Assembly (NCBI RefSeq): GCF_029245835.1
Contig: NZ_JAQWOO010000009.1
Coordinates: forward strand, 1 to 59,011
Direction: 5' to 3'
From: Algibacter sp.
GTDB taxonomy: Bacteria > Bacteroidota > Bacteroidia > Flavobacteriales > Flavobacteriaceae
DNA length: 59,011 nt
The stretch's first letter is position 1. Each line of letters starts with the position of its first letter. The notes under the pieces were generated by a model. The model was given only the letters and a program-made list of their open reading frames with translations. It was not told the DNA's origin and ran no database searches. Shown piece by piece: positions 55,259-57,802 of this stretch. The position numbers and the translations under genes were made by a program.

Positions 55259-57802
55259 CTAAGAGATATAATTCCAGATATTTTTATACTTACTAAGTTG
55301 TTTGTAGGTATGTAAAAAGACTTGATTTTCAGAAAGCGCCAATGAAGGGTCTATTTTCAAAATAGATTTGGCATGATGTCTAGCGAGTTGTAAAATATCA
55401 GTGTCTCTAACAATATCAGCAATTTTTAAGTTCAATACGCCACTTTGTTGGGTGCCCATAATATCCCCAGGACCACGTAAAAGCAAATCGACTTCAGCAA
55501 TTTCAAAACCATCATTAGTTCTAACCATAGTTTCTAAACGGGTTTTACTGTTTGCACTTAATTTATGGCTGGTCATTAAAATACAGTAACTCTGTTCTGC
55601 ACCACGTCCAACGCGACCACGTAATTGGTGTAATTGCGATAAGCCAAAGCGTTCTGCGCTTTCAATAATCATTACCGAAGCATTAGGCACATTCACACCA
55701 ACCTCAATAACGGTTGTTGCCACCATAATCTGAGTTTCTCCTTTAATAAAACGTTGCATTTCATAATCTTTATCGGCAGGTTTCATTTTACCGTGAACTA
55801 TCGATGTCTGATACTTTGGCATAGGGAAATCTCTAGAAATACTTTCGTAACCATCCATCAAATCCTTATAATCCATTTTTTCGTTTTCTTGAATTAAAGG
55901 GTAAACAATATAAATTTGACGTCCTTTATCAATTTCATCACGAATAAACCGAAAGACATTCAAACGATTTTTATCATAGCGATGTACCGTTTTTATCGAC
56001 TTTCTCCCTGGTGGTAATTCATCAATAATGGAGATATCTAAATCGCCATAAACAGACATCGCCAATGTTCTTGGAATTGGTGTTGCAGTCATGACTAAAA
56101 CGTGTGGCGGAATAGGAGCTGAAGCCCCACCAACCTCCCCAGAGGGGAGGCTTTTCAAAGTATTCGTAATATAACGCAAAACGTTATCAATGTCTCCAAG
56201 TACTTGTTCGTTAGTAAACCGTATAACTTTAAATCCAATTTCAGTTAAAATTGTAGTGCGTAAATCGTCTGCTTCTTTTTGTTCAATGGTATTGTGATAA
56301 CCGCCATCAACTTCAATAATTAAGTTTTTTTCTAAATTAACAAAGTCGACTATAAACTCGTCGATTATATGTTGTCTTCTAAATTTATATTCAAGATTTT
56401 TATTTCTCAAACATTCCCACAAAATAGATTCAGTATGAGTGCTGTGTTTTTTGTTTTCAGCTTGAAGTTCTTTTAATAATTTGTATGTCGATGGGCGAGC
56501 AGTCATATACTTTTTAAGTATGGCTTTTGCTTCCTCCCCATGGGAGGATTGAGGAGGGCCTTTTTGCCACAATTTTGAACGTTGTTTTACTCCAAAACGG
56601 TGTTGCTCATCTATAATGGCGAGTCCCAAATTCTTAAATTTCACTTTATCTTCAAGTAGGGCATGCGTACCAATTAAGATGTTTAATTCCCCATTTTCTA
56701 AAGCTTCATGAATAATTCGTCTTTCTGAAGTTTTAGTTGAACCCGTTAATATTTTTATATTGATATTCAGTTTATTACACCATTCAAGTAATCCGTTATA
56801 GTGCTGTACTGACAAAATTTCAGTCGGCGCCATTAAACAGGCTTGAAAACCGTTGTCAAGCGCCATGAGTATTGACATGAACGCCACTATGGTCTTGCCC
56901 GAACCCACATCACCTTGTAAAAGTCGATTCATTTGCGCATTACTTCCTAAATCGGCACGAATTTCCTTTAAAACTCGTTTTTGGGCATTGGTTAATTCGA
57001 AGGGTAAGTGGTCTTTAAAAAAGGAATTAAAATGGGTGCCAACTTGATTAAAAGGAAAGCCTTTAATTTTCGATTTATGAATTAAATTTTTGATGATTAA
57101 TTGCAGTTGAATATAAAATAATTCTTCAAATTTTAATCGGAATTGAGCCCTTGAAAGTAGCTCTTGACTCTTCGGAAAATGGACATTGAAAAGGGCAGCA
57201 TCTTTATTGATTAATTTTAATTCGGAACGTAAATTGTCAGATAGTGTTTCCGTAAATTTTCCGTTAGTTTCAATAAACAATTGCTGCATGATTTTACTAA
57301 TCACACGATTGGTAATGCCTTTATTCGATAGTTTTTCAGTAGAAGGATAAACGGGTTGCATGGCAGAACGTAGATTTTTCTCATGTTCCTCTTGCAATTC
57401 TAATTCCGGATGTGCCATATTGAATTTGCCACTAAACCAATTGGTTTTTCCAAAGGCCACATAGGTTTTATTCAACTTTAAATTTTCTCGAATCCATTTT
57501 TGTCCTCGAAACCAAACTAATTCCATGGTGCCGGTGTCGTCTTGAAAGGTCCCAACCAAGCGTTTTCCGCGTTTTTGAGCCACTTCTTTAAAACCTGTTA
57601 TTTTTCCAATAACTTGCACATCAGCATTATTACGCTGTAATTGATTGATTTTGTAATATTGAGTTCTGTCTATATATCTGTTTGGAAATAAGTTGATTAA
57701 ATCTTGATAGGTATGAATACCTAACTCCTTGCGCAACAAATCAGCACGATTAGGGCCAACGCCTTTTAAATAATCTATGGGAGTTTGCAGGTTTACAGAC
57801 AT
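55259..57802 (-). CDS. recG: ATP-dependent DNA helicase RecG with inserted DUF559 nuclease domain
   Basis: The product has 847 residues; RecG is normally about 690-705. The host parts are complete: the N-terminal wedge/OB domain (LKGVGPNRADLLRKELGI, then VQVIGKITGFKE), motif I GDVGSGKT, motif II DEQH (398-401) with RFGVKQRSKLW, motif III TAT (572-574), the second RecA-like domain with IVHGKMKP and ATTVIEVGVNVPNA, motif VI QLRGRVGRG, and the C-terminal TRP region GPGDIMGTQQSG. Residues 415-562 do not belong to RecG. They form a DUF559 domain with Glu458, FRRQH (474-478), Asp486 and EVD (497-499). RecG remodels stalled replication forks and Holliday junctions. Whether it works with the insert is unknown; the frame is open throughout and no splice residues of an intein are present. 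Confidence 0.93.
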   Translation of the reverse strand: MSVNLQTPIDYLKGVGPNRADLLRKELGIHTYQDLINLFPNRYIDRTQYYKINQLQRNNADVQVIGKITGFKEVAQKRGKRLVGTFQDDTGTMELVWFRGQKWIRENLKLNKTYVAFGKTNWFSGKFNMAHPELELQEEHEKNLRSAMQPVYPSTEKLSNKGITNRVISKIMQQLFIETNGKFTETLSDNLRSELKLINKDAALFNVHFPKSQELLSRAQFRLKFEELFYIQLQLIIKNLIHKSKIKGFPFNQVGTHFNSFFKDHLPFELTNAQKRVLKEIRADLGSNAQMNRLLQGDVGSGKTIVAFMSILMALDNGFQACLMAPTEILSVQHYNGLLEWCNKLNINIKILTGSTKTSERRIIHEALENGELNILIGTHALLEDKVKFKNLGLAIIDEQHRFGVKQRSKLWQKGPPQSSHGEEAKAILKKYMTARPSTYKLLKELQAENKKHSTHTESILWECLRNKNLEYKFRRQHIIDEFIVDFVNLEKNLIIEVDGGYHNTIEQKEADDLRTTILTEIGFKVIRFTNEQVLGDIDNVLRYITNTLKSLPSGEVGGASAPIPPHVLVMTATPIPRTLAMSVYGDLDISIIDELPPGRKSIKTVHRYDKNRLNVFRFIRDEIDKGRQIYIVYPLIQENEKMDYKDLMDGYESISRDFPMPKYQTSIVHGKMKPADKDYEMQRFIKGETQIMVATTVIEVGVNVPNASVMIIESAERFGLSQLHQLRGRVGRGAEQSYCILMTSHKLSANSKTRLETMVRTNDGFEIAEVDLLLRGPGDIMGTQQSGVLNLKIADIVRDTDILQLARHHAKSILKIDPSLALSENQVFLHTYKQLSKYKNIWNYIS
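56124..56560 (-). mobile_element. In-frame DUF559 endonuclease cassette bounded by inverted palindromic repeats
   Basis: On the coding strand the cassette opens near 56560 with GGCCCTCCTCAATCC, then the palindrome CCTCCC-ATG-GGGAGG (56533-56547). It closes with CCTCCCC-TCT-GGGGAGG (56134-56150), then TTGGTGGGGC, near 56124. The two ends are inverted versions of one design. Between them about 130 codons (after MTARPSTYKLL) encode a DUF559 domain: HTESILWECLRNKNLEYKFRRQHIIDEF with IVDFV, LIIEVDGGYH and GFKVIRFTNEQVLGDIDNVL. DUF559 is related to Vsr and other PD-(D/E)XK nucleases. The exact boundaries and any target duplication cannot be fixed without an uninterrupted recG from a close relative. 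Confidence 0.82.

Follow-up and report, generated by a model that had tools for sequence, protein, structure and literature searches.

The recG gene of an Algibacter sp. genome contains, within one open reading frame, a 149-residue block with a DUF559 nuclease domain that we interpret, with a probability of about two in three, as a homing-type mobile cassette that is carried in frame and is not spliced. The gene lies in a stretch of 59,011 nucleotides (NCBI RefSeq assembly GCF_029245835.1, contig NZ_JAQWOO010000009.1), referred to below as the window. A homing element without splicing had been proposed in the initial annotation of the window, and the proposal is favoured by a patchy occurrence of the block at a single precise position, remnants of its ends in alleles that lack the nuclease, exchange independent of recG, homology to the homing endonuclease I-Bth0305I, repeat ends, and the same nuclease subfamily in unrelated genes. 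The features under discussion are the following.

55259..57802, minus strand: recG host gene, 847 amino acids, single uninterrupted frame, cassette included
56600..56611, minus strand: DEQH (residues 398-401), which we take to be RecG helicase motif II
56114..56560, minus strand: in-frame cassette, residues 415-563, about 447 bp, net gain of about 147 codons
56532..56560, minus strand: left terminal palindromic repeat, translated GPPQSSHGE, an imperfect inverted copy of the right repeat
56456..56539, minus strand: two predicted N-terminal helices (KYMTARPSTYKLLKELQ...) that precede the nuclease core and are conserved among RecG inserts
56156..56455, minus strand: DUF559 (EDxHD/Vsr-like) nuclease core, residues 450-549
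56429..56431, minus strand: E458, predicted catalytic
56345..56347, minus strand: D486, predicted catalytic
56312..56314, minus strand: E497, predicted catalytic
56306..56308, minus strand: D499, predicted catalytic
56294..56296, minus strand: H503, conserved
56123..56150, minus strand: right terminal palindromic repeat, translated SLPSGEVGGA
56081..56089, minus strand: TAT (residues 572-574), presumably RecG helicase motif III

Four Pfam families in the open reading frame at 57802-55259 (RecG_wedge, DEAD, Helicase_C and RecG_dom3_C) identify its product as RecG. This RecG had been described as about 147 residues too long, with the excess in one block, and an alignment with relatives bears out both points. 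Eight of the ten genomes of the genus are insert-free, and their RecG proteins align to residues 1-415 and 564/565-847 with one or two codons between, which gives the boundaries of the block (residues 415-563, positions 56560-56114), essentially as first annotated, and a net excess of about 147 residues. The match extends over the whole length in the window's genome (G000) and in one other, G003. The cassette follows SKLWQK and precedes IPPHVLVMTATP, that is, it lies between helicase motifs II and III, and the equivalent stretch in the solved RecG proteins 1gm5 and 9wm0 is a short junction in the alignment. An AlphaFold model of the whole RecG was too poor (predicted template modelling score, pTM, 0.32) to place the domain in RecG.

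The DUF559 profile (PF04480) matches residues 450-549 with 99.8 bits against a curated cut-off of 20.6. The catalytic residues expected from the initial annotation (Glu458, Asp486, Glu497 and Asp499) are conserved: 32 aligned RecGs show no variation at E458, D486 and E497 and almost none at D499 and H503, all five are retained in all 86 host-fused DUF559 copies, and each is retained in 59 or 60 of the 60 stand-alone copies. Broken copies are under-counted, as the collection was made by profile and the frame scan missed one with a stop (L082). A profile of 56 RecG inserts returned two matches among solved proteins at E ≤0.01, the endonuclease-like 3hrl (E 5.8e-24) and 3r3p (E 1.8e-5), which the PDB names a mobile intron protein. 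AlphaFold2 gave a good model of the insert (mean predicted local distance difference test, pLDDT, 84; pTM 0.80), and Foldseek at E ≤0.001 matched it to 3hrl and to two 3r3p chains titled homing endonuclease I-Bth0305I catalytic domain (target template modelling score, TM, 0.78-0.79; E 2.8e-4 and 9.2e-4), with Vsr as a weaker match (E 0.11). Homology to the I-Bth0305I catalytic domain, by which EDxHD homing endonucleases are recognised, was thus found with both the profile and the predicted fold.

The block occupies a fixed site in a conserved gene for which insert-free alleles exist. The N-terminal half of RecG was detected in 289 of the 299 genomes of a family sample, at least 9 of which have RecG frames of 848-865 amino acids with DUF559. 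In a further genus (g127, probably Flavobacterium), RecG matches extend across the insert in 12 of 240 genomes with RecG. Twelve carriers with ten genus labels (those of the family sample, G003 and two g127 genomes) were aligned, and the block is at the identical RecG site in all of them. A scan of named genomes with the insert found 130 relatives; RecG hosts 69 of the best 80, at the same site, and the remaining 11 lie in other proteins, by eye isoleucyl- and valyl-tRNA synthetases. Carrier genera include Algibacter, Mariniflexile, Confluentibacter, Wocania, Tamlana, Flavivirga, Hyunsoonleella, Winogradskyella, Aequorivita, Polaribacter, Tenacibaculum, Maribacter and others. In Algibacter pectinivorans (L216) the first 48 bases of the G003 insert are identical and the RecG frame is of equal length. 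Relatives in phage and plasmid records were all below 60% identity (2 and 36 records, respectively), and viral contigs contained 73 relatives, the best at 51%. When the insert is left out of a tree of 59 RecGs, the full state requires 10 changes, at least 5 of them forced by the starred branches, compared with a mean of 11.1 after shuffling (118 of 500 shuffles were as low as 10), and presence of the cassette therefore follows the RecG tree hardly better than chance.

Alleles without the nuclease fall into two types at the site. Among 47 non-carriers (8 of the genus and 39 picked from the upper part of the family listing, same-genus partners included, hence not a random sample), 39 read K-N-x-x-P-P and 8 have extra residues, most of which are recognisable as cassette ends, for example KGPPQSSNGGASIPPH or KGSSSGEVGGAFIPPH (G038 is the least clear). 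At the DNA level, the first 18 nt of one such remnant are identical to the left end of the window's cassette and it closes with a sequence resembling the right end. The best reading is that the nuclease was lost in frame; alternatively, a solo repeat may have been inserted. Two further remnants were found among 20 more non-carrier stretches of genus g127, one of them with a broken frame. Provided that loss leaves remnants, the clean alleles have probably either been empty from the start or been replaced. With eight of the ten genus genomes free of it, a scattered distribution over the RecG tree and end remnants in some insert-free alleles, the cassette is not a fixed part of RecG. In the incomplete draft genome G797 (L308), the reading frame of recG is disrupted at the insertion site, which could reflect decay or assembly.

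Trees of the insert and of its flanks conflict among the 12 carriers: the insert data reject the flank tree (approximately unbiased test, AU, p = 0.023) and the flank data reject the insert tree (AU p = 0.0017). To compare close relatives we took all carrier pairs with a flank synonymous divergence (dS) of 0.02-0.75 (n = 17) and added G000/G003 by hand, giving 18 pairs; these share species and are not independent, and p values are uncorrected. The insert is far less diverged than the rest of recG in G386/G583 (dS 0.022 vs 0.370), L228/L245 (0.076 vs 0.489) and L247/L249 (0.063 vs 0.584), and L238/L250 shows the reverse (1.157 vs 0.442). Counting codon differences that leave the residue the same (Fisher test), the insert differs less than the flanks in 9 of the 18 pairs at p < 0.05, more in 3 (all involving L250), and without significant difference in 6. 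Against equal-size flank windows, the insert falls below all windows in 10 pairs and above all in 2. Five pairs within genus g127 gave a similar result, with the insert below all same-size flank windows in four, and three g127 species have nearly one and the same insert (1% difference, compared with 14-19% in the flanks). A uniformly slow insert is not the cause, because other pairs show equal or higher insert values. In L228/L245 both limits of the near-identity lie no more than a few codons from the block ends. By these comparisons the cassette moves between species independently of recG, though this spread is not seen in the window's own pair, G000/G003.

The cassette is bounded by repeats, as the initial annotation had it. 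Read on the gene strand, the block opens with GGCCCTCCTCAATCCTCCCATGGGGAGG and closes with CCTCCCCTCTGGGGAGGTTGGTGGGGCT, and by eye one unit with an inner hairpin recurs at both ends, imperfectly and inverted. The pair (56560-56532 and 56150-56123) is absent from the list produced by an automatic repeat finder. The hairpin CCTCCCC(N1-8)GGGGAGG is present in 5 of the 10 genus genomes, where a reversed control pattern had no matches, and the sequence around the matches defines a dispersed unit close to AGCCCCACCTAACCTCCCC-loop-GGGGAGG. The right end of RecG cassettes varies (KIPPLGENKGA, KIPTLGENKGA, PSGGLGWA and HSEGLGWA in L242, L253, L271 and L293) with site and nuclease unchanged, and the end repeats seem to be swapped or to evolve fast. 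Two further DUF559 genes in the window's genome (L001:1276-2012 and L002:1399-1901) are stand-alone, each between its own palindromic repeats; one has long direct repeats containing hairpins and the other has inverted repeats.

Members of the same subfamily sit in frame in many other proteins of the same family and phylum, some internally and some at an end of the host protein. Hosts confirmed by Pfam include methionine synthase (MetH), leucyl-tRNA synthetase (LeuRS, editing domain), HemD, HisD, methylmalonyl-CoA mutase, coproporphyrinogen oxidase, UvrC, RNase H, two UvrD-like helicases and an M23 peptidase; identified beyond their Pfam family are a class I tRNA synthetase read as isoleucyl-tRNA synthetase (IleRS) and a histidine biosynthesis protein read as HisF. 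A tree of 146 DUF559 domains was built without L003 (which holds the window's locus), L024, ten loci duplicated in longer ones and L163, whose row is identical to another. Its labels group by host site (27 changes vs 81.9 when shuffled), and 54 host-fused copies, from LeuRS, MetH, RecG, IleRS, the mutase and others, form one group with a support of 94 that contains no stand-alone gene. One MetH (L059) has in-frame DUF559 cassettes at two sites; the two are similar, and by eye the similarity begins and ends at AGCCCCCC...GGGGGGCT ends. In L028 a repeat-like peptide stands alone at the second MetH site. Two LeuRS genes (L043 and L049) contain the in-frame repeat-like peptides PPSGDLGGV and SPSGRSGG without a nuclease, directly before PLELNTMPGW, which suggests solo palindrome insertions. 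We lean towards a wider version of the interpretation, in which Bacteroidota hold widespread unspliced homing cassettes with an EDxHD/DUF559 nuclease and palindromic linker ends, lodged for good and in frame in housekeeping enzymes and divided into site-specific lineages (recG, leuS, metH and others), each with its own cycle of invasion, decay and remnant-leaving loss.

The cycle that we propose for recG is as follows. RecG would be made with the nuclease domain inside it, carried on a loop, with the repeats acting as Pro/Gly/Ser/Glu protein linkers, and the cassette is presumably retained in the protein without splicing. The nuclease part would cut insert-free recG alleles that share the cell, for example after DNA uptake, and repair of the cut allele would copy the cassette in. 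A later in-frame deletion could remove it and leave a remnant. Rare use of a new site, as suggested by the MetH with two similar copies, might found a new site-specific lineage, perhaps with help from the repeats.

Several results weigh against this interpretation. Cleavage of empty recG and homing are both predicted from sequence. The ends are inverted, as in an insertion sequence, and no target-site duplication could be defined at the cassette; no codon signature near the site common to full and remnant alleles across genera was found. Purifying selection on the insert (ratio of nonsynonymous to synonymous divergence, dN/dS, 0.08-0.13 in five of six pairs) fits a host function too. The window's insert has diverged from that of G003 about as much as recG has (dS 0.924 and 0.876), which fits old vertical descent; the window's own copy is old, without sign of recent movement. 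The initial annotation had named a pattern that would speak against mobility, consisting of an insert at the same place in all relatives with RecG-like divergence and no repeat ends, or of a misassembly; it was not found as a whole, and the part that stands is this RecG-like divergence between the window copy and the sole other carrier in the genus. In the DUF559 tree the RecG group has weak support (46), and 32 of the 86 fused copies are placed with stand-alone genes, away from the in-frame group. Nearly all closest pairs listed in an exchange test of LeuRS, MetH, HemD and HsdR are saturated. Pairs that differ in state give a mixed picture of the co-conversion of flanking sequence that is expected of a homing element. 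The carrier G003 and its clean sister G001 have 14 differences within 10 codons of the site (mean 3.18), a value reached by 1 of 677 windows, the site itself; with wider windows 21/667 (15 codons), 9/657 (20), 45/637 (30) and 36/617 (40) are as high. There is no clear peak at the site in G268/G043, G256/G028 or G015/G248 (64/667, 486/667 and 100/667 windows as high at 15 codons), nor in five pairs without a state difference. Finally, dS near the site is below the flank average in 14 of the 17 close pairs, including pairs in which the insert was not exchanged, and the exchanges in close pairs could arise by ordinary recombination.

The repeats themselves could be the mobile unit, of the kind of repetitive extragenic palindromes (REP), Rickettsia palindromic elements (RPE) or miniature inverted-repeat transposable elements (MITE), with the nuclease as their transposase acting at many target sites and the apparent site preference reflecting host-protein tolerance only. 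Such a transposon would account for the solo and inverted-pair repeat copies in the genus genomes, for the matching ends of the two copies in one MetH, and for the flanks of stand-alone DUF559 genes, which match left to right, directly or inverted, in 32 of 48 cases vs 25 of 231 mismatched controls (score ≥35, in the first set of loci collected). It predicts random insertion, however, and the RecG inserts sit at one codon position across genera and group together among DUF559s, albeit with weak support; by the same flank measure only 8 of 43 host-fused copies match (6 of 208 mismatched controls), and the repeats look decayed in several RecG copies. We consider this explanation unlikely.

Also unlikely is that the block is an old, frozen insertion that is exchanged by ordinary homologous recombination, its nuclease idle and its frequency set by selection or drift. 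Both alleles share the long recG homology that such exchange needs, insert and flanks do not differ significantly in 6 of the 18 carrier pairs, the G000/G003 inserts diverged like recG, and a peak of differences at the site appears in only one of the four state-differing pairs. Ordinary recombination tracts should nevertheless fall anywhere, and the near-identity in L228/L245 covers the insert and reaches no further than a few codons from its ends; in 10 of the 18 pairs no equal-size flank window is as similar. An idle nuclease is also at odds with the predicted active site being kept in every fused copy and with the occurrence of the same subfamily in unrelated genes.

Domestication, in which the domain is kept because it enables RecG to cut DNA at branches or stalled forks, is improbable. 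Purifying selection, the conserved catalytic residues, carriers in many Flavobacteriaceae genera and the presence of the repair proteins UvrC and UvrD-like helicases among the hosts all fit it. Fork cutting makes no sense, however, in HemD, HisF-type, MetH and LeuRS hosts, and the insert is uncommon (at least 9/289 family genomes with RecG and 12/240 in g127), is missing from close relatives, and has remnants which suggest that its loss is tolerated. Domestication is not needed to explain the cassette and is possible for some lineages.

A cryptic splicing element (an odd intein or intron) or an assembly artefact is very improbable: inteins and introns do typically occupy conserved sites of conserved genes, but the block starts with Gly-Pro and ends with Ala-Ser-Ala-Pro in place of the Cys/Ser/Thr start and Asn end of an intein, which the initial annotation had also rejected by the end residues; no Pfam intein family matches the block and the frame is open throughout, no Rfam group I or group II intron match was found up to E 1 on the window's locus, and the same block occurs in many independent genomes. 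Across 11 loci, Rfam gave three matches below the gathering score (two in L104 and one in L003), none of them an intron and none taken as real. An internal start that would release a free nuclease is not favoured either, since the Met of KYMTARPS is not conserved and is Gln in Maribacter inserts.

The cassette shares features with several known systems. EDxHD homing endonucleases form a described family (PMC3943268), and the usual explanation for homing nucleases in conserved genes is invasion that is tolerated through self-splicing introns or inteins (PMC3943268). The recG cassette resembles I-Bth0305I (3r3p) in its nuclease core and in a conserved host gene with empty alleles; the 3r3p protein is listed as a mobile intron protein, whereas here no intron or intein was found and the nuclease lies in the host frame between palindromic repeats. 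As a member of the Pfam family of DUF559/Vsr-like nucleases (PF04480), it has 3hrl as its best structural match, but the 3hrl chain is a 104-residue protein, and the copy in the window is part of RecG and has additional N-terminal helices. The closest published case that we found is the ShiLan domain, an unspliced homing insertion in a phage DNA methylase gene that is called not essential and that its authors predict to stay in the protein (PMC11855218). It is likewise patchily distributed in the manner of an intein, with a nuclease inside, an open host frame and no detected splicing (PMC11855218). The ShiLan nuclease is of the HNH type and is encoded in a frame other than the host's, in a phage gene (PMC11855218), while the recG cassette has an in-frame EDxHD/DUF559 nuclease in a cellular gene, repeat ends and remnants. 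The same source describes a lone LAGLIDADG insertion without detectable splicing that is apparently vertically inherited (PMC11855218). RPEs are in-frame palindromes of about 150 bp that are retained in unrelated protein genes (PMC10969869, PMC3733652). The recG cassette resembles them in its hairpin ends and open frame, but it is about 447 bp long and its repeats bracket a nuclease, of which the available portions of the RPE accounts make no mention (PMC10969869, PMC3733652). We found no published account of in-frame DUF559 cassettes in the DUF559/COG2852 literature, judged by titles and abstract openings, with subscription journals mostly outside the scope.

Unlike homing elements based on splicing, the invader appears to remain in the mature enzyme, and if this is true, a selfish nuclease can colonise essential genes without splicing. 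The recG alleles of related species, whether full, empty or remnant-bearing, provide a natural series for the study of invasion, decay and loss. In-frame DUF559 domains in Bacteroidota proteins, and the repeat-derived linker peptides that adjoin them, may be mobile DNA and not part of enzyme function, and the hosts of DUF559 show where important proteins naturally tolerate insertions.

On contig C61 of the window's genome (L335:2000-2140), two facing hairpin units about 120 bp apart, without a nuclease, enclose a terminator-like hairpin and are possibly a non-autonomous copy. Restriction-modification proteins also host DUF559, according to Pfam: HsdR, an N-6 methylase with an HsdM N-terminus, an Eco57I-type methylase and a type ISP enzyme (HsdR, HsdM-like, Eco57I-type and ISP-type hosts at L136, L138, L168 and L154). 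The HsdR and HsdM-like copies largely form groups of their own in the DUF559 tree, and a comparison of the HsdR at L168 with one other locus (L117, the same as L172) revealed fewer differences in the insert (p 0.008-0.0095).

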